Below are positions 3,321 through 58,803 of a stretch of DNA of 64,000 nucleotides, in pieces. The stretch lies in the IMG/VR virus record IMGVR_UViG_3300035698_008252, positions 1 to 64,000 of that record; one strand, 5' to 3'. This DNA is from a virus. The first letter of the stretch is position 1, and the number at the start of each line of letters is the position of its first letter. Under the pieces are notes generated by a model that worked only from the letters and a program-made list of their open reading frames with translations, searched no databases and had not been told where the DNA came from. The translations under genes were made by a program, and so were the position numbers.

Positions 3321-3336
3321 ACCGAGACATAATGAG
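3321..3336 (+). repeat. Dispersed repeat copy 1 (partial)
   Basis: ACCGAGACATAATGAG, sharing 16 bases with three longer copies at 9845, 23662 and 49471. It lies between two genes and overlaps the ribosome site of the gene at 3349. Confidence 0.75.
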
Positions 3337-25789: not shown

Positions 25790-27235
25790 ATGAAAAAAAT
25801 AATTCTTAAAATGTTTGGTATCCATAAAAACCTAGAAGTAAATCTAGAGCCTGGAATAAATATAATTAAGGGCGAGAATAGGACAGGTAAAACATGGATT
25901 CTAGAATCTCCCTGCTTTGCTTACTTCGGGAAGACTAAGAGTTCTAAAATATCTAAGATAGTTAACTATGACGCTGAAAAAGCCTCTGTAGAAATTATAG
26001 ATGATGATATGACTGTTAAGAGAAGTCGTTCAAGAGACTTAGCTAAGTTAGAGAAACCTACAAAGACAATACTAGAAGATAAATTAAATTTATCCTATCA
26101 GGAATTCTTACGATTATTTTATATATCAGCCCAAGAATCTTTTGCATTATTTGAACCCGCTTATTTTCGTACATTCCTAATAAAACTTTTTGATTTAGAA
26201 AAATATTCTAAGATATATAAAAAATTACAAATGCAGAAACAAGGGCTAGAAGCTCAGGTAGCTGAAGGTAAGAAAGTTAATACAAAGTTATACGAGAAGA
26301 GAGCTCAGAGAGTTATAGGTATACAGAAACACTGGAAAGATATTCTTATAAAGATGGATGCTGCATTAGATAAATATGATAAAGCATTAAAAGAACTTAA
26401 TAATAGTAAATGGAAAGCTACATCTGGTGTATCTCAATTAAAATCTAGAGCAGGTTTAATAGCTAAAGATAAATGCCCTACATGCGAGAGACCTTTTAAA
26501 CAGGCAGATAGTCAAAAAGAATTAGCGGAAATTAAAAAGCAATACGCTGAGATACAAACTAAAGTAGATGCTATAACTGTTAAGGAGTTAGAGTTCAATA
26601 AAGGCAAGACTAAACTAAAAAGCAAGCAGGATAAAGTAAGGACTAAGATATATAAATGTAACTCTGTATATGCTACTATAAAGGAGAGGGGTAAGGAGAT
26701 ACCAGCTACAGGTAATCTAAAGAGAATAGCCGAATTAGACCATGTATTACCTTTCTTTAACCCTAATGGCTTCCCTGCTCATCTATTGCAGATATATCTA
26801 CCCGTTATCCAGGAAACAGCAAACAGTCTACTTAGACGCATGTTCCCAGATATGGAACTTGAGATAAGAGCAACTAAACCCGATAGTAATAAGCCTGACT
26901 TTAAAATATTTATTATTAGATATGGTGAAGAGGTTGAAGAGCTGGCTGACTGTAGTGGTGCTGAGACTATAATTATTAATCTATGCTTACGCTTGGGTAT
27001 TATGGTTATATTTAAACAGCTCAACAATACATCTATAGATTTCTTAATGATAGATGAAGGACTTGATAAGCTTGACGAGAAAAATGTTTTAAGGATTATT
27101 GATTTATTAAATAAGTTTATGGATATGGGTTATATAAAGCAGGTAATACTTGTATCGCATATGCCTATTTTAAAAGAATTAGAAGGTGTAAACTACATAG
27201 AAATTTTACCTGAAGGAGGCACTGATGAAAGCTAA
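25790..27235 (+). CDS. sbcC-like: SbcC/Rad50-like ATPase
   Basis: A 481-residue SMC-like ATPase. Walker A IKGENRTGKTW (28-35), a Q-loop in YISAQESF, a short coiled coil with a zinc hook CPTC (229-232), the signature ELADCSGAE (about 385-391), and Walker B FLMIDEGLDKLDE (about 418-430). It is about half the length of cellular SbcC because the coiled coils are short, as in T4 gp46. Works with the SbcD-like nuclease. The stop overlaps the M16 peptidase start by 11 bases. Confidence 0.9.
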   Translation: MKKIILKMFGIHKNLEVNLEPGINIIKGENRTGKTWILESPCFAYFGKTKSSKISKIVNYDAEKASVEIIDDDMTVKRSRSRDLAKLEKPTKTILEDKLNLSYQEFLRLFYISAQESFALFEPAYFRTFLIKLFDLEKYSKIYKKLQMQKQGLEAQVAEGKKVNTKLYEKRAQRVIGIQKHWKDILIKMDAALDKYDKALKELNNSKWKATSGVSQLKSRAGLIAKDKCPTCERPFKQADSQKELAEIKKQYAEIQTKVDAITVKELEFNKGKTKLKSKQDKVRTKIYKCNSVYATIKERGKEIPATGNLKRIAELDHVLPFFNPNGFPAHLLQIYLPVIQETANSLLRRMFPDMELEIRATKPDSNKPDFKIFIIRYGEEVEELADCSGAETIIINLCLRLGIMVIFKQLNNTSIDFLMIDEGLDKLDEKNVLRIIDLLNKFMDMGYIKQVILVSHMPILKELEGVNYIEILPEGGTDES

Positions 27236-28376
27236 TATGAATAGAGGAGGAAAATCTGTATGGGTAGGTTATCTTGCACCTGTAGGTTCGAGAGATGAGA
27301 GCGATTCTGTTAAAGGTGTATCGCATTTCTTAGAGCACATGATGTTTAAAGGCACGAAGAATAGAGATAATAATGAACTTAAAAGAGAACTAGAGCAATA
27401 TGGTGCTAGGCTCAATGCATATACATCTGAGGAGCAGACAGTTTACTATGCCGAGATTTCAAGTAAGTATGTAGATAAAGCTAAAGATGTCTTACAAGAC
27501 ATGGTACATAATTCTATAATACCTGAAGAGGAAGTAGATAGAGAACGTAAGGTTATTATCCAGGAATATAAAATGTACGAAGATAATCCTTCAAGTCTTA
27601 TTTATGACTTAGCTCACAAGGCTATCTTTAAGGAAGACTCAGGATTGTATCTACCCATTGTAGGAACGGAAGAAACCATTAAAAGTATATCTAGGGAAGA
27701 TTTGCTAACTCACTATAAAAAGAATTATAGCGTAACCCCTGAGATTATTGTAGGTGATACAGAGACTATCTGCGATAACAATAAACTATCCTGTAGATTT
27801 ACAAGAGAAAGTTTTCAAACAGATAAATCAGATGTAGTTAAAAAGAAAGCTGGAATATCTCAAGCTACAATGATTCTTACAGGAGGTTTTTACTTAGGTA
27901 ACAGTGTTGTAGATGGATTTGCAATTAAACTATTATCAGGTGTTATGAATGGATTCTCAGGTAGACTATTTCAGACTATTAGAGAGAAACATAATTTAGT
28001 GTATACAACTTATTTCTATGTTGAGAGATTTAGTTGTGGTACTTGTCAATGGCATATATTTGCTAAGTTAGATGCAGATAAAATAGACTTAGCAAAGAAA
28101 TTAATGTTAGAGGAATTGAATAAACCAATTACTCAAGAGGAACTATCATTCGCTAAGAATAAGGTTTTAGGCAGCATGGAGTTATCCTTAGATGATAGAG
28201 ACTATATAGGTAATATTATTGCAGGTTCTATAGTAACAGGACAAAATAATTATAATGAGTATATTAATAATTATGCGGCTAATCTAGATAGAGCTGAACA
28301 TAATTTCTCTAAGGTACTAGCAAAAATTAATGTAAATAAAAATAGATTAGTATCTATTATACCAGAAACAAATTAA
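27225..28376 (+). CDS. M16-family zinc peptidase
   Basis: A 383-residue protein closely following bacterial M16B peptidases. The inverted zinc motif HFLEH is at 34-38 (ligands His34 and His38, base Glu37) in SHFLEHMMFKGT; NAYTSEEQTVYY follows; the distal ligand Glu114, exactly 76 residues after His38, lies in KVIIQEYKMYEDNP. The second half has the usual GGFYLGNS and GFSGRLFQTIREK region. These enzymes cleave peptides, usually in host processing. The AAGGAGG site lies in the end of the SbcC gene. It is unusual for a phage, and there is no signal peptide, so it acts in the cytoplasm. Substrate unknown. Confidence 0.87.
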   Translation: MKANMNRGGKSVWVGYLAPVGSRDESDSVKGVSHFLEHMMFKGTKNRDNNELKRELEQYGARLNAYTSEEQTVYYAEISSKYVDKAKDVLQDMVHNSIIPEEEVDRERKVIIQEYKMYEDNPSSLIYDLAHKAIFKEDSGLYLPIVGTEETIKSISREDLLTHYKKNYSVTPEIIVGDTETICDNNKLSCRFTRESFQTDKSDVVKKKAGISQATMILTGGFYLGNSVVDGFAIKLLSGVMNGFSGRLFQTIREKHNLVYTTYFYVERFSCGTCQWHIFAKLDADKIDLAKKLMLEELNKPITQEELSFAKNKVLGSMELSLDDRDYIGNIIAGSIVTGQNNYNEYINNYAANLDRAEHNFSKVLAKINVNKNRLVSIIPETN

Positions 28377-28393: not shown

Positions 28394-28816
28394 ATGGGTA
28401 TTCAAATTAACTCAGTTACTATAGGCGGTAACTTAACAAAAGATATTGAACTAAGAGCTACACCAGGCGGTACATCTGTATGTGAGTTTGCAGTAGCAAA
28501 TAACAATACCTATGTATCTAACGGTGAAAAGAAGTCAGAAGTATCTTTTATTAATGTAGTTGTATGGGGTAAGATTGCTGAGAATTGTGCTAAGTTTCTA
28601 AGCAAAGGTAAAGGTGTTATAGTTGAAGGTAGAATAAAACAGCAAACATGGAAAACAGATGATGATAAGAATAGAAGTGCGATTAAAATAATTGCTACTA
28701 AAGTCCACTTCACATCACCTCAAGACAAAGACAATATATCTAATGATAATAAAAATGATATGAAGGATTCCTCAGGTACGACATTGAATCCAGAGGATAT
28801 AGCTTGGGATGATTAA
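28394..28816 (+). CDS. ssb: Single-stranded DNA-binding protein
   Basis: A 140-residue bacterial-type SSB with an OB fold. INSVTIGGNLTKDIELRATP and SVCEFAVANN open it; FINVVVWGKIAENCAKFL and GKGVIVEGRIKQQTW follow. A disordered linker ends in an acidic tip EDIAWDD that would recruit partners, as in cellular SSB. AGGAGG upstream; the stop overlaps the deformylase start. It protects single strands in replication and recombination. Confidence 0.93.
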   Translation: MGIQINSVTIGGNLTKDIELRATPGGTSVCEFAVANNNTYVSNGEKKSEVSFINVVVWGKIAENCAKFLSKGKGVIVEGRIKQQTWKTDDDKNRSAIKIIATKVHFTSPQDKDNISNDNKNDMKDSSGTTLNPEDIAWDD

Positions 28817-35690: not shown

Positions 35691-36908
35691 ATGGGAAAGA
35701 CAGTTAGAATAAAAGCTAAAAAAAAGATTGTTAAAACTAAGACAGATAGCAAGGTAATAAAAAAAGGTTCTAAGAGATTGTATCCAGTGGAACAGGTTAC
35801 TGATAGAAAAACAGCTTCAGGCTTCGGTTCGGGTGCTTCTATCTATAAACCCTTAAAGAAATTATCTGCAACCCAGATTAGGAATTTAATCCTAGAATCA
35901 TTTTGGATTGATACCTGTATCAATGTAATAGTTGATGAGGTTATAAAATATGACCTTAAAACACAACCTACTAATAAGGCTATTGATGCTTTTTTAAAAT
36001 ACCCTAATAATAAAGACCCTCTCATGATTATTAGAAAAAAATATCTTAAAGATATGCTAAGATATGGTAATGGTTGTTGTACTATAAAATATAAAAGACG
36101 CAAACCAGCCGAGTTAGTAGTAGCTCCAGGATATTTATTAGAGATGGATTCTGATAATAATTATGTATTTCAAAGCCAAGCAGGTTCAGGTTATCTATCA
36201 GATAAAGATGGTAAGACTCTTGTATTTAAACCTAAAGAGATTATGCATTTCCAACTAGATGCTGATAGTGATTCTACTATGGCTCGAAGCCCTATAGATA
36301 AAATATATAATATGGTACGAGCAGATGTATCTATAGCTAGAGAATTAGCTAAATTTGTTGATAGAGGATTTTTTCTACCTAGTTTTCTGTCGCTACCCAA
36401 AACTAACAAAAAGGATGTTGAAGAATTTGTTGAGTTTGTAAATAATATGGTATCTGAAGGTTCTAAGATGTTTGGAATTAATAAGGATGCTAAAGTACAG
36501 GAGATTAAATTCTGGTCTGCTAAAGATATTATAGGTGCTCATAATTGGACAGGTATAAGCATTGCCAGTGTATATAAGATACCGCCATTCATGGTTAACT
36601 TAGTAGCAGATACAGGCTCATTAAATGCTAGAGAACAGGTAGCTAGATTTAAAGAAAATACTATCTTACCTATACTTAAACTAGAGGCTTATATCTATAC
36701 AATGCAGCTAGCTAAAAAAGGTTTCAAGGAAATGAAATCAGAAATTGTAGCACCCGAAGCGTTAACACTTATGAATTATAATAGAGCTAGAATAGCTAAT
36801 ATGCTATCAGGTACAAAGCAAACTGTAACAGTAGATGAGGTTAGAGATTTATTCTTTGGTTTAGACCCTTTAACTGATGACCAGAAAAAAGAAATGTCAG
36901 AAGAATAA
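35691..36908 (+). CDS. Portal protein
   Basis: A 405-residue protein of the HK97-type portal family. After a Lys-rich N-terminus, LILESFWIDTCINVIVDEVI and DMLRYGNGCCTIKYKR form the wing. YLLEMDSDNNYVFQSQAGSG and KPKEIMHFQLDADSDSTMAR carry the family pattern. SVYKIPPFMVNLVADTGSLN matches the typical (I.a.gVPP..l) clip and crown region. It forms the dodecamer at the packaging vertex. AGGAGG upstream. Confidence 0.88.
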   Translation: MGKTVRIKAKKKIVKTKTDSKVIKKGSKRLYPVEQVTDRKTASGFGSGASIYKPLKKLSATQIRNLILESFWIDTCINVIVDEVIKYDLKTQPTNKAIDAFLKYPNNKDPLMIIRKKYLKDMLRYGNGCCTIKYKRRKPAELVVAPGYLLEMDSDNNYVFQSQAGSGYLSDKDGKTLVFKPKEIMHFQLDADSDSTMARSPIDKIYNMVRADVSIARELAKFVDRGFFLPSFLSLPKTNKKDVEEFVEFVNNMVSEGSKMFGINKDAKVQEIKFWSAKDIIGAHNWTGISIASVYKIPPFMVNLVADTGSLNAREQVARFKENTILPILKLEAYIYTMQLAKKGFKEMKSEIVAPEALTLMNYNRARIANMLSGTKQTVTVDEVRDLFFGLDPLTDDQKKEMSEE

Positions 36909-41734: not shown

Positions 41735-41970
41735 TTATAATTACTATAGTTCAATGTGTTATAGTTGCGGCTATCTTATCATGCATATATACAGCAGGCT
41801 ATATAAATGGATTTTTTAGAAGAGACAATATTCTAAACAATGTGATATACGATAGAGCAGCTAAGGATAATTATCATACACCTGAATTAGTTAATGATGA
41901 GGCTTTCAATAACGATAATACTCTAAGACAGAGTGCGAAAATAAATAGCGAATTGATTGACACAGCATAG
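41731..41970 (+). CDS. Small membrane-anchored protein
   Basis: A 79-residue protein with one N-terminal transmembrane helix (about 2-21) and an acidic, Asn-rich tail. I start at ATG 41731, overlapping the preceding stop. Its last codons form the -35 of class B promoter 5. Function unknown. Confidence 0.62.
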   Translation: MIIITIVQCVIVAAILSCIYTAGYINGFFRRDNILNNVIYDRAAKDNYHTPELVNDEAFNNDNTLRQSAKINSELIDTA

Positions 41971-41986
41971 TTCGATATGGTATACT
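41957..41986 (+). promoter_or_regulatory. Class B promoter 5 (twin of the minus-strand copy at 49248)
   Basis: TTGACA 41957-41962 and TATACT 41981-41986, 18-bp spacer ending ATATGG. The 38 bp from 41957 to 41994 are identical to the reverse complement of 49211-49248. It is followed by an unusually long leader. Confidence 0.9.
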
Positions 41987-41994
41987 TGAAGTAT

Positions 41995-47345: not shown

Positions 47346-48067
47346 AGTCAGTATTAAGCCCTACTCAAAACGTCCTGCTTAGCCCCTGGCTGTACGTTCT
47401 CCCCTAAACCCTACACTTACCCTAATATACTATATTAAAGACTACCTATACCCCTGTTTCTTCAACCACAACCCTGTTGTCATAGCTATTCCTGTGCTAT
47501 ATCTAGCACAAGTTTAAGGTTTATCTATGCTGTTAATAGCATAGCCTGACTATGCCTTTTCCTCTTAGTCTAAACCAGTTGTCCTGGAATCCAGGACTAC
47601 TCAATTAATACTTCAGTTCTGATAGGTTAAACTAGTTTATTTTATGATTGAGTTGTCAAGGATTACTTTACATCTGCATCACAGGTTAAACTATCCTCTA
47701 CCGCTTCTTCCTATTTGATTATTATTACAAAAGGGGTTGGGGATATAACGCCTATACTCACATATTACCATAGCATATCCTAACCCCTACTATCGTAGAG
47801 CTTCGGACTGTTCTACAGTCTAGAGCGTATGGCTATAGCTATGGCTATAGTTATGGGGGGTCATGGCAATGGCTATGGTGAAGCGAATGGAGATGAGCTG
47901 ATTGCTATGGTAGGTTGCACCTAGTCAGGTGCGATAGCTATGGTGAGCCCAGGATGGGAGAGCAATGGCTAGCGGAACTGATTAGGTTCAACACTATGCT
48001 CTAGGGTATGAGTACACACGCCTCTTTCCCCAGCCCCTTTCCCGTAGTTGATGCGGATAGAGAATAA
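47346..48067. other. Gene-free hairpin-rich zone between converging operons
   Basis: About 720 bases without a credible gene. Perfect hairpins lie at 47493-47510 (7-bp stem), 47525-47544 (7-bp), 47581-47597 (7-bp), 47806-47820 (6-bp) and 47917-47932 (6-bp). A longer imperfect pairing joins 47732-47746 with 47775-47788. From 47827 to 47965 short units like GGCTATAG and GCTATGGT recur. None has a U-tract. Composition is visibly more GC-rich than the genes. It may hold transcription stops, an origin or a small RNA. Confidence 0.55.
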
Positions 48068-48274
48068 TTAAAGTTTATCTAATAGCCTCTTTCTTTTAGC
48101 TACCATAGAATTCCATTGGGATTTATAGGCTTCAAATTCTTGCCAAAGTCGTTCCCTTGTTCCTGTGGTATCTCCCTCATTGTCCTTATAGTCTTGATAG
48201 GCTAATTCCTTCTTATAATATAAATCAGTCATCTCCTTCTCAAGTTCTTTTATTTGTTTTTTAATAGTTGCCAT
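48068..48274 (-). CDS. Small coiled-coil protein
   Basis: A 68-residue charged helical protein (IKKQIKELEKEMTDLYYKKE...), probably a coiled coil, with AGGAGG before the ATG. Last gene of the short minus-strand operon. Function unknown. Confidence 0.7.
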   Translation of the reverse strand: MATIKKQIKELEKEMTDLYYKKELAYQDYKDNEGDTTGTRERLWQEFEAYKSQWNSMVAKRKRLLDKL

Positions 48275-48286
48275 TTACTATACCTC

Positions 48287-48466
48287 CTATTTATTAAAGC
48301 ATTCACATAACATAACAATGTCTTTTTTAGTACACTCACCAAAAGCTCCCTCTATGTTATTAAAAGAATTATGTATTTTATAATTCAACTCTCTAGTATA
48401 TTTTATTTCATTCCTAGAACCTTCGCAATACTCCTTAGCGAAATCAGCAGCCTCTAATACATCCAT
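48287..48466 (-). CDS. Small Cys-containing protein (59 aa)
   Basis: A 59-residue protein (MDVLEAADFAKEYCEGSRNE...) with cysteines at 14, 45, 54 and 56 and AGGGGG before the ATG. Function unknown. Confidence 0.62.
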   Translation of the reverse strand: MDVLEAADFAKEYCEGSRNEIKYTRELNYKIHNSFNNIEGAFGECTKKDIVMLCECFNK

Positions 48467-48480
48467 ATAATACCCCCTAG

Positions 48481-48987
48481 TTAATAAGCATAAACATTAC
48501 AGAGTCTTTTTAGTAAAGCTGTTTTTGCTAGCTCAAATTTCTGTAAGTTTGTTTTTCTTATTGAAGCTCTTTTTTCAACAAAATAATCTCCACCCTCATA
48601 ATAAGCTATTACTCCTATGTTCTTACCTAGAGACCTGAGATATTCTTTTTCTTTCTTATATAATGCTAAAGGTACAACAAAATAGAATTGATGAGGTTTT
48701 TGAGGTTCTTTACGAACTCCTAGACTTTTGTTGATATAGTTACCATTAGGCATAACATGACCATAACAACCACGAAAAGCCCTAAGCTGTATTTTGTATT
48801 TACTCTTCCTCTTCTCTGCTACTTTAATGTCGTGAGAGTTTCTTTTAAACTCATATTCTATAATTTTCTCACCTCTTAAATCAACAGCAAGAACATCAGC
48901 TATACAACCATAAAAACTAACCTCAGTACAAGCTATAAGATTTTTATTCCTACGCAAAAAACGAGCAAAATATTCCTCGTTTATCAT
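48481..48987 (-). CDS. PD-(D/E)XK nuclease-like protein (MmcB-like)
   Basis: A 168-residue protein. CIADVLAVD followed by KIIEYEFKRNSHD gives the Asp...Glu-x-Lys pair of a PD-(D/E)XK nuclease, and HQFYFVVP and NIGVIAYYEG are the later strands, as in MmcB and related repair-type proteins. I start at ATG 48987 because GGAGAG lies 4 bases upstream; another ATG four codons earlier has no site. It may process DNA; unproven. Confidence 0.67.
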   Translation of the reverse strand: MINEEYFARFLRRNKNLIACTEVSFYGCIADVLAVDLRGEKIIEYEFKRNSHDIKVAEKRKSKYKIQLRAFRGCYGHVMPNGNYINKSLGVRKEPQKPHQFYFVVPLALYKKEKEYLRSLGKNIGVIAYYEGGDYFVEKRASIRKTNLQKFELAKTALLKRLCNVYAY

Positions 48988-49000
48988 AGTTCTCTCCATA

Positions 49001-49183
49001 TTATTTATTGCAATAAGCTACCCATACACCACAAATAGGAAGATAGATAGATGTATCACCTTCCGTAAGATTCTTTAGTATTGTTGATTCACAGGTAGCC
49101 CATTCTACCCATTTAACTGTACTACTAACCCTTAACCTCAATTCCCTAGTAATATTGCATTCAAAGGTATTTCCATCTTTCAT
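49001..49183 (-). CDS. Hypothetical small protein, first of the minus operon
   Basis: A 60-residue protein (KDGNTFECNITRELRLRVSS...) with several cysteines. ATG at 49183 chosen for the TTGGAGG site; an in-frame ATG further upstream lies in the promoter. Function unknown. Confidence 0.65.
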   Translation of the reverse strand: MKDGNTFECNITRELRLRVSSTVKWVEWATCESTILKNLTEGDTSIYLPICGVWVAYCNK

Positions 49184-49218
49184 ATAGTCCTCCAAGTTAA
49201 ATTTTAATTCATACTTCA

Positions 49219-49248
49219 AGTATACCATATCGAACTATGCTGTGTCAA
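49219..49248 (-). promoter_or_regulatory. Class B promoter 6, minus strand
   Basis: TTGACA at 49248-49243 and TATACT at 49224-49219, 18-bp spacer. Identical over 38 bp to promoter 5 at 41957, in inverted orientation. Drives the operon 49183 to 48068. Confidence 0.9.
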
Positions 49249-49382
49249 GTTACCTAACACTAATAGCTATAGTGATGCTTGTATGGTAATGTCCTCTAAA
49301 ATTATATGTCCTCTGTTTAAGGGACAATGTTCACTAATGGACTAATGTTCACTCTAAGGTATACATTCAGGTATGAGTATAC

Positions 49383-49423
49383 ATTGTATGAATCCGTACA
49401 ACATATTGTATAAATCCGTACAA
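49383..49423. promoter_or_regulatory. Two tandem operator-like sites, 22-bp period
   Basis: The 19-base units at 49383-49401 and 49405-49423 differ by one base. Each has inverted ends ATTGTA...TACAA, the look of a dimeric repressor site. A shorter direct pair, AATGTTCACT, lies just before at 49326 and 49344. Confidence 0.6.
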
Positions 49424-49440
49424 TAAATTATACCTGCTCA

Positions 49441-49474
49441 GGTACGAATCAGGTACGAATCAGGTATTAATACC
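49441..49474. repeat. 11-bp tandem repeat and palindrome
   Basis: GGTACGAATCA occurs twice in tandem (49441-49451, 49452-49462), followed by the perfect palindrome GGTATTAATACC (49463-49474). The palindrome runs into dispersed repeat copy 4. Confidence 0.75.
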
Positions 49475-49489
49475 GAGACATAATGAGCT
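49471..49489 (+). repeat. Dispersed 19-bp repeat copy 4
   Basis: TACCGAGACATAATGAGCT, here outside any gene, in the repeat-rich region. All four copies point the same way. Confidence 0.85.
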
Positions 49490-49518
49490 TTTATACCTGC
49501 TAGGGTACAAAGAAATAT

Positions 49519-49550
49519 CGAACCAGAGTAAAGGTTCGGTAGGTTCGGTA
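49519..49550. repeat. 9-bp tandem repeat with inverted partner
   Basis: GGTTCGGTA is repeated in tandem (49533-49541, 49542-49550). CGAACC at 49519-49524 is the inverted complement of GGTTCG and could form a hairpin. Part of the repeat-rich region 49250-49655, which holds no convincing gene. Confidence 0.65.
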
Positions 49551-49658
49551 ATAAAGTCTCCCCCACCAAACATCCGTAGGGATTATTCAGTGAGAGAGCT
49601 CTAACAGTTATACACACTATTAGCGGGAGGACTAACATAGCATAACTGCGTACTACGA

Positions 49659-49745
49659 TTATATAATATTATACTGCTTCTGCAAGTAAACACCAGCCAT
49701 GCAGCTTATAAGTGAACACAAAGCTATTACGCCTAGTATATTCAT
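49659..49745 (-). CDS. Possible micropeptide (28 aa)
   Basis: A 28-residue frame (MNILGVIALCSLISCMAGVY...) with a GAAGGGCTGGG stretch upstream. The sequence is one hydrophobic helix with two cysteines. It lies 33 bases after the tail hub stop. Small enough to be chance. Confidence 0.35.
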   Translation of the reverse strand: MNILGVIALCSLISCMAGVYLQKQYNII

Positions 49746-49778: not shown

Positions 49779-52379
49779 CTACCCTCTGTAGTATAATTCT
49801 GTTTCTTCTAGCATCCCTATCTTCGCAAGATATTCATTATTATCCCTAGACCGTTCTCGCATAATATCAAACGCAGGAGTATCTAGAAAGGTTTTATTAG
49901 AAAGACTTAAGGTTGTTTGTCTACCGATAACATCATAGTCAATCTCGTATATGGCTAGACTAGCAGCTTCAGTAGTAGGTAATGAAGTATTAGTTACAGA
50001 TACTTTATCTAATAATTCAATATCTAAATCTAAGCCATCTAATTGTAATTGACCACCGTAAGTAGGTTTATAAAATTCTCTCAATTGACTTAGGTAAGTA
50101 TTCATTAAAGGTATATCATTAATATTTCCTTTAAGACTAGTAGCCTTTTTAAACTCAGGTCTTCTCACAACCTCTGTACCACCAAAGTAATTAGTATCTA
50201 CCTTTGTTTGAATAGGTGAATCAGTTCTGACAGCATAGGTTATCTCAATCCTTCTAGCCTCTTTAAATTCATCACCCTCCACATATATCTCAGAATCACC
50301 AGGTTCGGATTTAAATACTCTAGGAGACATAACCTTATCTTCACCCTTAGTAGGATAATCTTTAATAACTATTCTACAAGAAGCATTTGGGTCTGTCAAT
50401 AGTTTAGCGTTTAAAGTTTCACCAGGCTTAAACATAAAGTAATAAAATTTATGTTCCTCACCATCCTCGTCATCATAAGGGTCATCATCTATAGTATCTT
50501 TAAACCAGAAAATTCCTGTTCTAGTATCATTATCATTAGGGTCTAATTCACCACCTCTATTAAAATAAGATGTAATAATTTTTTCAGTAATCTCAAAATC
50601 ACCTGTAAGTATAACTCTACTTCTTGCTCGGGATAAATCCACAATAGGTCTAAAAGAAAGTACATTATTATCATCAGTTATAGCCGCACCTTCTGTAGGT
50701 ATAGCATAAGATTTAACTAGAGAACCAGAATCAATAGCTCTAATTCTTAATCTACCGTATTTATCTATGTAATAAACATATTTACCAAACATCTTAGTAG
50801 CCCATTCTATAACACTTCTTAGAGGTTGGTAAATCCAAGACATAGGAGTAGCATTAGAATCAGGAACATCAATAACAGCGTCGGGTAATCCTGCTACATT
50901 TATAATTTCTTTAAGTACTCTATCATATGTTTTAGTTACTCCTGTACCTTCGTATGATGGAGGTCTATAAATATAATGTGAAGGAGTATAAAGCTGGTCA
51001 AGATAATGAGATAAATCTTTACACTCATATGTAATCTCTTGACGGTTATTTAAAAGTTGTCTATTCCTACCAGTTATAAAACCACAGAATACAGGCATCT
51101 CCTGATTAGTAGAATCAAATAAATATATATAAATTTTCTCGCCTATAGTTAATTCAGGGGTCTCATCAAACTTAACATCCTCTATTATAGTAGCAGAACT
51201 ACCTTCAAGACTTAATCTAACATTACTAACGAATAAAGAATCAGTAATAGGAAATACACCTGACTCAGTTATAATACCACCACCAGCAGATACAAAACTA
51301 TTATAATTAGAACCGCTTAAAAATATAGAATTGAAGGGTAATACTGAATTACCATAGTTACTAGAAAAGGTATTCATACCCTCACCACCTGAACCAGCAC
51401 CCGTACCACCAGAAGCACCTGAGATATTTATAGGGTCAGTAACAGTTTCATCAAAAGGAGGTAAAATGTTAGTTGACTCAGAACCTCCACCAGAACCATA
51501 AGCTCTATCTTTTACCCAAATCTTTAAATACATATATATTTCTCTAGAATTAGAGACACAAGAATTCTCAGGTACATCTCTAGCTGTCTGAGCAAAAGCA
51601 TCACCATCATCATCCTGGGAAATACCTAGATAATCGTAATCATTTAAACTCTCAAAGGTTATATCCGTACCATCAACTCCTAAAGGTCTTGTAACAGACC
51701 TCATAGAAAATGTAGAGGCTGCGTCGAAAGAAAATAAATCCTCTACTATCTCATCATCTTCATTCCTATAAAAAGCATCCAGTCTCTTTAAATCAAGTAA
51801 ACCAGAAGCAACTAAATTATCCCCCTCCATCTGTTCATCTTTATCAAAGTTCCAAAATTCAACCTTAGCTATTTGGTATAATGCAGGGTCGTATGTTTCT
51901 CTAAGTGTAGAAAAAGCAGCAGCAAAATCTATCTCAGCGTTATCATCTTCAAAATAAATAAATAGACTAGTTGAAGCTTGTCTATACTCCCAGAAAGGAT
52001 TACCGTTAATATTAGGAAACCCACCCCAACATCTTTTAAAAATTATAGGTAGTCTATTAGAGTATTTACATACAGTTCTTTTTAAAGTACAAGTACCACC
52101 CGAAAACCAAGAAGGTGCGGCAGGTGTAACTGTATTAGTGGTAGTAGGTAATCCAGTGTTACCCTCAGTTAAAAAATGTTGATAACCATCCTCCTCTACA
52201 CCACCTAAAAATTCCTGCCTTAGAGTTGATTTTCTCCAATCTAAAGTAACTAATACAGGAGTCTCAATATTCCAATCAGAACCTTCATCAGTTAATTCAG
52301 TAGCTACAGGATTAAATGAGTAATTAGTTGATGGTATTGTATATTGAACATTCCAAGGGTCTCCAGTATATTCAGCCAT
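49779..52379 (-). CDS. Tail hub or tail-tip-like protein
   Basis: An 866-residue virion protein. The part from about 400 on looks like a tail hub domain: LTIGEKIYIYLFDSTNQEMP, VFCGFITGRNRQLLNN, QEITYECKDLSHYLDQ, then SVIEWATKMFGKYVYYIDKYGRLRIR. This follows the gp27/gpD-type pattern of a trajectory function with local basis. The N-terminal 300 residues are beta-rich and probably link to the adhesin. ATG 52379 chosen because GGAGG lies in the end of the previous gene. Last large gene of the structural operon. Confidence 0.66.
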   Translation of the reverse strand: MAEYTGDPWNVQYTIPSTNYSFNPVATELTDEGSDWNIETPVLVTLDWRKSTLRQEFLGGVEEDGYQHFLTEGNTGLPTTTNTVTPAAPSWFSGGTCTLKRTVCKYSNRLPIIFKRCWGGFPNINGNPFWEYRQASTSLFIYFEDDNAEIDFAAAFSTLRETYDPALYQIAKVEFWNFDKDEQMEGDNLVASGLLDLKRLDAFYRNEDDEIVEDLFSFDAASTFSMRSVTRPLGVDGTDITFESLNDYDYLGISQDDDGDAFAQTARDVPENSCVSNSREIYMYLKIWVKDRAYGSGGGSESTNILPPFDETVTDPINISGASGGTGAGSGGEGMNTFSSNYGNSVLPFNSIFLSGSNYNSFVSAGGGIITESGVFPITDSLFVSNVRLSLEGSSATIIEDVKFDETPELTIGEKIYIYLFDSTNQEMPVFCGFITGRNRQLLNNRQEITYECKDLSHYLDQLYTPSHYIYRPPSYEGTGVTKTYDRVLKEIINVAGLPDAVIDVPDSNATPMSWIYQPLRSVIEWATKMFGKYVYYIDKYGRLRIRAIDSGSLVKSYAIPTEGAAITDDNNVLSFRPIVDLSRARSRVILTGDFEITEKIITSYFNRGGELDPNDNDTRTGIFWFKDTIDDDPYDDEDGEEHKFYYFMFKPGETLNAKLLTDPNASCRIVIKDYPTKGEDKVMSPRVFKSEPGDSEIYVEGDEFKEARRIEITYAVRTDSPIQTKVDTNYFGGTEVVRRPEFKKATSLKGNINDIPLMNTYLSQLREFYKPTYGGQLQLDGLDLDIELLDKVSVTNTSLPTTEAASLAIYEIDYDVIGRQTTLSLSNKTFLDTPAFDIMRERSRDNNEYLAKIGMLEETELYYRG

Positions 52380-56430: not shown

Positions 56431-58803
56431 TTACTTTTGCTGATTCATACGTTTAAGAATAGAATTAATCTTTGACTTCGTAATAGAAGACTCAGCAGCA
56501 GCCTTAGAAGCAGCATTAGCTAGTTTAAGCATTGACTCAGTAGTATCAGTAGATGAGGATTTAATAGAATTTGCAGCATCACCACTACTCTTAGCCATAT
56601 CTTTTAAGTATAATTTCTCACCACCACCCATTTGAATCCAACTTTCATTATCAGGACTAACATCCCTCGCAGCAGTAGATTTAGAAGATTTGGTTGAAGT
56701 AGAACCTTGAAAAATAGAACTCCACATAGTTCCTTTAGCCCCTCCACCAATAGTCTGAGAACCACCAGCAGTTGAACCTATAGCATTAGGCTGTATTCGA
56801 GATTTACTACCAGCTTCTTTTAATAAACCTGCTGAAGCATTTAAACCTATTATTTTCTTAACAGCCATAATAGGATTTAAATCAGTCCAACTAGGTGTCA
56901 TCTGTGCCTTTAGCTTACCAGGGTTTACCTGAACATTACCTGCAACATCTTTATAAACTCCCCTATCTCTATTCTTCCACATATTAATAGCTACCTCAGC
57001 CGCATACTTCATTACACTACCAAATAGCTTTTTAAATACCTCTATCTTAGCTTGAAATTGAGTAATAATAACATCTACAAATATCTTAGATAAACCTTCT
57101 ATTACAGGTTTTAATGTTGATAGCCCTGCTTTCATATAAGCGATAAACATAGTACCCATAGATTTAGCTAGTAAATGTACCTTTTCACCTATCGCACCAG
57201 TTTCTGATTTAATCTCACTAGTATTAACTTTACCTGATTTATTATCATAGTTATACATGGTATAAGATTCGTCTACACCAGGAAAAAATGTCTTCCCTAC
57301 TTTCTGACCCATAGCAGTTAATCCGTCAGCAGCTTGAGCAAATACAGGCATAAGAGCATCACCAAGCATAGAAGCCCAGCGTTTGAAAATACCAGCATTA
57401 CCCTCTAGAGCTTTGTAAAAAGAATCAACACCCATTAAAAGGGTTTTAAATAATTCATTAGCTACTCGAATAAAAGGGTCGAACATAACTTGAAGACCTG
57501 CCATTATAGTATTTTGAAGTCTTTTCCATGTATTACCAAAAGTATTAATAACTTGGGTAAACATCTTATCTAATATACTACTACCTTGGTCAGAGGCATC
57601 CATAGAAGATTCTAAAATATCTCGTTTCTTTTTGTAAAGTTCAGGTCTACCAAGTAAAGCAGCAGCACCCATACCACCCCTAACTCCAAAGGTTCTAGAT
57701 ACAACCTCTGTAGGAATATCACTCATCATCTTTAAAACTTCAGCTAAAGGTTTCATCTTACCACCAGCTAAAGTAAATTGCTTAAATATTCTGTCAGTAC
57801 CTTTTTCTAAACTCTGCATTGTACCCATAAGAGAATTCATCTCACCCTCAACAGCAGTATAAGCAGAAGTTCCCTCTTTACCTGCTAAGGCTAACTCATA
57901 TTGTTTTTCCTTTAATTTATTTAATCTCTCGTAGTAATCTGCCAATACTTTTTGACCTGATTGAAGAGTAGTTAAAAATCTTTGATTCTTACCAGAAGCT
58001 TGATATATATTTAACCCATATTTAGCAAACATAGTAGCCGCTTTAGATGTACCACCACTAAGCTTATTTAAAGTACCTCGTAAATAAACACCCGCCTTAG
58101 AATAACTAAATCCTTGGTCGGTTAAACTCATCAAAGCTGCTGCTGTATCTTTAATAGCTTCCTCACTCTTACCGAAAACTGTAGCCGCTACAGGAGCTAC
58201 ATAACTCATAGCTGTAAAAAATCCTTGAAGAGACATCTTAGAATTTGTAAAAGAAGCTGTAATTGTATCCGCTAATTTAGGTATCTTAGACTGTTCAACA
58301 CTAAAAGCTCGGGATACACCTATTAACCCATCAATAGTAGAGTTAAAGTCAGCACCACCAAGAGATGCCATTTTCATAGCCTTGTCAGTTAGAGCATAAG
58401 ATTCTGTGATATTGTTACCAGCTAAAGCAGAAGTATATAAACCTGATTGTATTTCTTTGGCTGTTTTACCTACCTGAGTGGAGGCTTCTCTCGCAAGTTT
58501 ACTTACCTGCTCATAAACAGCACCAGTACCACTCTCACCTTTAGTAAGAATAGTAGCTGTTTTCATACCCTCTAAATTTAAATTTATTAACTCAGAGGTA
58601 ACATTACTTATAGATGTTTTTAATTGATTCATAGTAGAAATAATACTACGAATACCACCAAAAATTAAGGCAATAGAACCTGTACGAAAGAGAGCAACTA
58701 GAGTAGACTTTAAAAGATTAACAGAATTCTTTAAAAGTTTAACATTAGCTGCCGCCTTACGAGTATTTATAATAACCTGTACGAATAGTTGTCTAGCACC
58801 CAT
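56431..58803 (-). CDS. Tail tape measure protein
   Basis: A 790-residue protein with the TP901-type tape measure core: REASTQVGKTAKEIQSGLYT, SALAGNNITESYALTDKAMK, SMSLQG-like TNSKMSLQGFFTAMSYVAPV, then AALMSLTDQGFSYSKAGVYL and RGTLNKLSGG. Hydrophobic segments lie near 35-55 and a helical stretch follows. It sets tail length and helps DNA exit. At 790 residues it implies a long tail of over 100 nm, using the usual rule of about 0.15 nm per residue. Confidence 0.88.
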   Translation of the reverse strand: MGARQLFVQVIINTRKAAANVKLLKNSVNLLKSTLVALFRTGSIALIFGGIRSIISTMNQLKTSISNVTSELINLNLEGMKTATILTKGESGTGAVYEQVSKLAREASTQVGKTAKEIQSGLYTSALAGNNITESYALTDKAMKMASLGGADFNSTIDGLIGVSRAFSVEQSKIPKLADTITASFTNSKMSLQGFFTAMSYVAPVAATVFGKSEEAIKDTAAALMSLTDQGFSYSKAGVYLRGTLNKLSGGTSKAATMFAKYGLNIYQASGKNQRFLTTLQSGQKVLADYYERLNKLKEKQYELALAGKEGTSAYTAVEGEMNSLMGTMQSLEKGTDRIFKQFTLAGGKMKPLAEVLKMMSDIPTEVVSRTFGVRGGMGAAALLGRPELYKKKRDILESSMDASDQGSSILDKMFTQVINTFGNTWKRLQNTIMAGLQVMFDPFIRVANELFKTLLMGVDSFYKALEGNAGIFKRWASMLGDALMPVFAQAADGLTAMGQKVGKTFFPGVDESYTMYNYDNKSGKVNTSEIKSETGAIGEKVHLLAKSMGTMFIAYMKAGLSTLKPVIEGLSKIFVDVIITQFQAKIEVFKKLFGSVMKYAAEVAINMWKNRDRGVYKDVAGNVQVNPGKLKAQMTPSWTDLNPIMAVKKIIGLNASAGLLKEAGSKSRIQPNAIGSTAGGSQTIGGGAKGTMWSSIFQGSTSTKSSKSTAARDVSPDNESWIQMGGGEKLYLKDMAKSSGDAANSIKSSSTDTTESMLKLANAASKAAAESSITKSKINSILKRMNQQK

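Follow-up and report, generated by a model that had tools for sequence, protein, structure and literature searches.

The stretch of DNA analysed here (the window) comprises 64 kb of the 71,911-bp IMG/VR record IMGVR_UViG_3300035698_008252, apparently derived from a lytic siphophage. Matches to PHROG and Pfam families were found for DNA polymerase, RecA, SbcCD-like genes and a primase-helicase, as well as for terminase, portal, tape measure, tail and major head protein; neither an integrase nor a phage repressor was recognised among the subset of phage proteins scanned, and a search for tRNAs yielded none. The replication module also contains an insulinase-family (M16) peptidase gene (27225-28376), kept in the four long relatives described below. 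Within the structural region, positions 62466-69503 of the record (window end and L005) hold what appears by eye to be a glycan/nucleotide-sugar gene cluster with LicD-like, cytidylyltransferase-like, SDR and glycosyltransferase-like genes, partly conserved in relatives, and a strong minus-strand RNA fold (z -5.8) was seen within the tape-measure gene (58501-58700).

Genes are oriented on the plus strand up to 47345 and on the minus strand from 48068 onward; the record is incomplete, and the divergent early/structural junction falls outside it. At the convergent junction lies a 2.4-kb stretch in which two noncoding blocks enclose a small leftward operon. At 47346-48067 there is a 722-bp noncoding gap without an Rfam match, which folds very strongly on both strands (47724-48067: z -5.8 plus, -4.8 minus; 14-bp closing helix 47730-47743/48027-48040). 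The leftward accessory operon (48068-49228, minus strand), which includes a gene for a 172-aa phrog_2776 protein, lies downstream of the block considered here (49250-49655). The sequence-only reading had placed this block between a class B promoter and the end of the structural operon, and both flanks were found as described: the promoter, TTGACA-18-TATACT, at 49248-49219 on the minus strand, and the 3' end of an 871-aa ORF of the leftward structural operon at 49779. This ORF is followed by a small hydrophobic one of 28 aa (49659-49745, minus strand); a similar 27-aa hydrophobic ORF, read by eye, follows the homologue of the 871-aa gene in the relative G001. The 38 nt at 49211-49248 are identical to 41957-41994 on the opposite strand, so that both places carry a copy of the class B promoter.

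No close relatives at the DNA level were found among annotated phages, and searches with portal, tail-protein and accessory genes returned zero or one relative. Alignment of the major head protein, by contrast, identified 12 loci, 11 of them new contigs. The same two-module architecture is present in four long relatives (G001, G006, G011 and G012), which also have a convergent junction where the structural genes end. In G001 the corresponding gap measures 192 bp and holds no counterpart of the 2.4-kb stretch, for which no DNA match to this relative was seen either. As side observations, a gene of G001 (L006, 9309-10196, minus strand) carries a 12-bp tandem repeat encoding NIRDNIRDNIR-type repeats, and two terminase frames (L022, 3487-5133, and L086, 2079-4508, both minus strand) look by eye as if interrupted by inteins near the P-loop.

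Repeats and folding of the intergenic block

All repeats that had been described from the letters alone are present. The two operator-like sites with a 22-bp period lie at 49383 and 49405 (palindromic units 49384-49401 and 49406-49423), and the repeat pair AATGTTCACT at 49326 and 49344. The 11-bp tandem CAGGTACGAAT (49439 and 49450) continues through a degenerate third copy at 49461 into the 12-bp palindrome GGTATTAATACC (49463-49474), the whole spanning 49439-49474. The dispersed 16-bp element ACCGAGACATAATGAG has its copy 4 at 49472-49487 and is repeated without a mismatch at 3321, 9846 and 23663, always on the plus strand; the latter three copies lie at gene junctions, where two of them supply a TAATGA double stop. 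The 9-bp tandem AGGTTCGGT (49532 and 49541; 49532-49549, plus strand) has its inverted partner CGAACC at 49519, forming the inverted repeat CGAACC-N8-GGTTCG (49519-49538). Four direct half-sites ATGTYCWCT at 49289, 49306, 49327 and 49345 (49289-49353, plus strand) had been missed. Exact direct repeats (at least 9 nt, offset at most 25) cover 126 of the 406 bases of the block, against a mean of 1.0 and a maximum of 36 in 1000 dinucleotide shuffles, and this coverage is reached by no other of 353 genome windows. The repeats are thus real and far from chance.

The sequence-only reading had made its proposal depend on the repeats not being absent in close relatives. The exact repeats are indeed absent, but the operator pair, the CGAACC hairpin and a 42-bp element do recur. 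The last (49344-49385, plus strand) is 83% identical to a sequence at the convergent junction of G011 (36792-36833). CGAACC-N8/9-GGTTCG occurs once per genome in the window phage, G006, G011, G002 and G003, in the four relatives at the divergent junction just upstream of the first structural gene, and the motif TTGTATGGTAA (49279-49289, plus strand) is also found at the divergent junction of G006, G002 and G003. The 16-bp element is absent from the four long relatives, and a pattern scan for it gave nine unrelated single matches, about as many as expected by chance.

Folding differs along the block. Between 49552 and 49658 a strong fold is formed only by the minus-strand RNA (z -5.1, against +0.1 for plus), as two adjacent hairpins (49649-49604 and 49603-49552) located between the last late gene and the operator array; this double hairpin (49552-49649) is probably the 3' end of the late structural-operon transcript. 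In the segment 49359-49550 the two strands fold with equal strength (z -4.5 and -4.2), as palindromic DNA sites would, and 49250-49358 has direct repeats and no structure. A single large RNA had been suggested by the first z-scan, but splitting the block confined the strand-specific part to 49552-49658. No Rfam covariance model matched the block at gathering score or with a credible E-value.

An operator pair shared with a bacterial operon

The core of the block is formed by two 18-bp palindromes, TTGTAY-N6-RTACAA, with a period of 22 bp: unit 1, the quasi-palindrome TTGTATGAATCCGTACAA (49384-49401), and unit 2, TTGTATAAATCCGTACAA (49406-49423). A degenerate third palindrome, TTATACCTGCTCAGGTAC (49428-49445), would continue the same 22-bp register. 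The expected count of the operator-pair pattern in the window is 0.00. On the minus strand, unit 2 lies 3 nt beyond a -10-like TATAAT (49432-49427), which is preceded at 17 nt by a poor -35, TACCTG, and is from its position a candidate operator-controlled promoter. A scan of the relatives with a leave-one-genome-out matrix (spacings 15-39, one best pair per genome) gave best pairs at spacing 22 of 39.3 bits in the window phage, 38.8 in G006, 32.6 in G012 and 26.5 in G011, where the second unit is a half-site. The pair was not found in G001 or in the divergent regions of G002 and G003. It lies at the divergent early/structural junction in G006 and G011 and at the convergent junction in the window phage and G012. 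The window phage, G011 and G006 have in common the order of operator pair, TACCTGC-like motif (recognised by eye) and CGAACC repeat. G011 offers a comparable layout in which TTGACA-18-TACAAT directly precedes the array and points to the structural genes; a TTGACA-type -35 pointing into the array is absent in the window phage, and none is rightly placed in G012. Nothing matching the operator motif was found in the literature.

In GTDB genomes the strict pair was detected at 38 loci, concentrated in Omnitrophota, Elusimicrobiota and Desulfuromonadales. There the array occupies the promoter-operator position of a conserved two-gene operon, with gene 1 at 22 and gene 2 at 23 of the 38 loci. Gene 1 encodes a DUF6036 nucleotidyltransferase (PF19502), a domain that no paper in the literature searched mentions. 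Gene 2 encodes a protein of ~223 aa whose conserved C-terminal block is rich in K, T, E and R; it has no match in Pfam, PADLOC, NCBIfam or PDB, and its structure model (pLDDT 79, pTM 0.58) no fold match in the PDB, so that DNA binding by this protein can only be surmised. Bacterial loci with the operon and the array are L133-L169 and L189-L217, and PADLOC has no model for the operon.

Among Omnitrophota, the half-extended array was found in 34 of 368 genomes (reversed control, 0), and the operon genes were present at 29 of the 30 array loci retrieved. In each of six host genomes examined, the array occupies one place only. At 9 of 21 loci it is preceded at 13-14 bp by TTGACA, and the units extend from just past this sequence to the start of gene 1, which is the layout expected of autorepression. 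By analogy the operon may be toxin-antitoxin-like, given its nucleotidyltransferase family and its likeness to AbiE (PMC7319586). No homologues of gene 1 or gene 2 were found in the related phages or in array-bearing phage contigs, even with filters off.

A matrix built from 87 host operators only, with a null of 200 shuffled genomes (maximum 21.9 bits), assigned 41.1 bits to the window phage pair at 49384, the next best pair in this phage scoring 5.8. It gave 37.9 bits to the pair of G006, 22.7 to that of G012 and 16.0 to that of G011, which by the host matrix alone is therefore not above the null. The claim of a repressor-controlled region is supported: four related phages have kept one operator pair each, and this pair agrees with the autoregulatory-type operator array in front of a bacterial operon.

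Omnitrophota as host of the phage are a weak lead and not proof, since the suggestion comes from one gene, open to horizontal transfer. The single-strand-binding gene (~28405-28660) has nucleotide matches in Omnitrophota, the best over 256 bp with 69% identity and 95 bits, and several further Omnitrophota genomes match; none was among the matches listed for 379 genomes of the G017 phylum and 341 of the G016 phylum. The phage head protein gave one weak match only against Omnitrophota genomes.

Exact-pattern scans of IMG/VR, which detect only good matches, placed the degenerate 22-bp pair in 41 contigs, some of them near-duplicates, with 34 distinct arrays, and the 23-bp spacing control in 12 contigs with 11. 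By mechanical, ORF-based calls, 24 of the 34 distinct arrays are intergenic, against 2 of the 11 controls. Fifteen of these 24 lie at most 250 bp upstream of an ORF start, which looks regulatory; the adjoining genes include terminase, portal, ParB-like, replication-initiator and CI-like genes. As a group, the phage arrays show no fixed -35 geometry (9 of 24, against a background of 20%).

Control region, decoy and other readings

We favour, at a probability of roughly 0.55, the reading of the block as a compound intergenic control region, with an array of host-operon design as its core and control of the minus strand as its likely role. The phage has one array of this design and neither operon gene, and the near-exact copy of the host switch suggests that a regulator of the host is recruited or sequestered by the phage. 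A dimeric DNA-binding protein would bind the units side by side on one helix face (2.1 turns); it could be the autorepressor of the host operon, or else another protein, from phage or host, that recognises the same sites. The most likely effect would be control of leftward transcription towards the operon at 49.2-48.1 kb, as a protein bound next to TATAAT would block transcription in that direction, with the class B promoter following downstream of the candidate -10. The array could simultaneously titrate the host repressor during replication of the phage genome, and the hairpins might end or protect the late transcript before the block. Counting against this explanation, the array lies at different junctions in different relatives, and G001 and the divergent regions of G002 and G003 do without the pair.

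A rather unlikely alternative is that the array serves only as a decoy or sensor, with no role at a phage promoter: replicating copies would titrate the autorepressor and derepress the host nucleotidyltransferase operon, from which either the phage gains or the host senses infection in an abortive-type response. There is one array per phage while the cognate genes are missing, and the want of a well-placed -35 in the window phage and G012, together with that of a fixed geometry in the phage arrays, weakens the promoter reading and favours a decoy or other use. Moreover, DUF6036 belongs among the nucleotidyltransferases, and paired inverted repeats mediate the autorepression of AbiE-type nucleotidyltransferase modules (PMC7319586). 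Against a pure decoy stand the 15 intergenic phage arrays close upstream of ORF starts, often of packaging genes, and the promoter directly before the array in G011; the status of the host operon as a toxin module would again be an argument from family and AbiE likeness. A more general proposal, which we put forward tentatively and hold to be possible and not probable, is that phages of Omnitrophota and of related bacteria imitate the operators of a nucleotidyltransferase operon widespread in their hosts, whose repressor is titrated or recruited by phage replication. The operon would then sense incoming operator copies, or the phage would hijack its repressor as a switch. No example of a phage decoy operator for a toxin-antitoxin module turned up in a literature search.

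The sequence-only reading had also offered the block as a candidate origin, to be checked by the GC-skew profile, and this claim is not supported. Its palindromes and tandem repeats, which would serve as initiator sites, are dense, and three of its motifs are common to the relatives' divergent junction, the site of iteron-like arrays. However, the cumulative skew has its maximum ~2 kb away (near 47 kb), at the convergent junction, as in 5 of 5 genomes (the window phage and four relatives), and no minimum at the block; the minimum lies at the divergent junction or in its direction (66.0 kb in G006, the only record to span this junction well). Since skew follows gene orientation, it is not independent evidence. 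Arrays of 10-11-bp iteron-like repeats were observed at the divergent junction, off the window record, in G006 (L065, 6185-6279), G011 (L057, 8454-8575) and G002 (L070, 1415-1543). These arrays are larger than the repeats of the block, which number only 2-4 copies each of several different kinds. Neither G001 nor the convergent junction of G006 has a comparable block, and no initiator gene was recognised among the phage proteins scanned. With the caveat on skew, its maximum and the arrays at the other junction make an origin in the block improbable; the divergent-junction arrays are better candidates for this phage group, and the search for its origin moves to the divergent early/structural junction.

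We regard as quite improbable a minus-strand noncoding RNA (~49650-49300) in which CUCAUUAUGUCUCGGU would pair with the 16-nt element at 3321, 9846 and 23663, next to start or stop sites of early genes. The exact complementarity of 16-22 nt to three plus-strand gene junctions and a minus-strand z of -5.5 over the whole region agree with it; the confinement of the strand-specific fold described above, an accessibility of the element in the predicted RNA of 0.28-0.39 that is not above the average of 0.35, the lack of an Rfam family and the absence of the element from the long relatives do not. A packaging (pac/cos) or recombination site is very improbable, for the array adjoins terminase or portal genes in several other phage contigs but is far from the terminase in the window phage (33.9 kb) and in relatives, and the same array precedes replication-initiator and CI-like genes in other contigs and the bacterial operon in hosts.

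These results tie an uncultured phage lineage to one particular regulatory sequence in the bacteria that are probably its hosts. They also make it testable whether operator titration allows a bacterial nucleotidyltransferase operon to sense phage DNA.

Comparison with known regulatory systems

The closest counterpart of the phage array is that of the host DUF6036 operon, which has the same 18-bp units, 4-bp spacers, 22-bp period, number of units (2-4) and, among the genomes examined, single occurrence per genome; TTGTAY-N6-RTACAA recurs in the phage at this very period. The host array differs in its position before gene 1, often with TTGACA 13-14 bp in front, whereas in the phage neither gene 1 nor gene 2 follows immediately, nor was a homologue found in any phage tested. 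The paired repressor operators of phages lambda and 434 likewise place palindromes side by side at a distance of some two helical turns, as suits dimers that bind cooperatively, but their sequence is unrelated and no CI-like repressor was recognised in the window phage genes scanned. Each array unit also fits the bare consensus of the NtcA box, TGTA-N8-TACA; such boxes are not known to form 22-bp tandem arrays, and we take this as a resemblance only.

The operator of the AbiE type IV toxin-antitoxin system likewise belongs to an autoregulated nucleotidyltransferase operon with paired promoter repeats (PMC7319586). The AbiEi sites are, however, two 23-bp repeats inverted to each other and 3 bp apart (PMC7319586), and gene 2 of the array operon was not matched to an AbiEi-type antitoxin in Pfam, PADLOC, NCBIfam or PDB or through its structure model. 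As a compact intergenic array of the kind that switches between modules, the block also recalls the early/late promoter region of phi29 with its p4 and p6 sites (PMC3100819); phi29 uses its own proteins.
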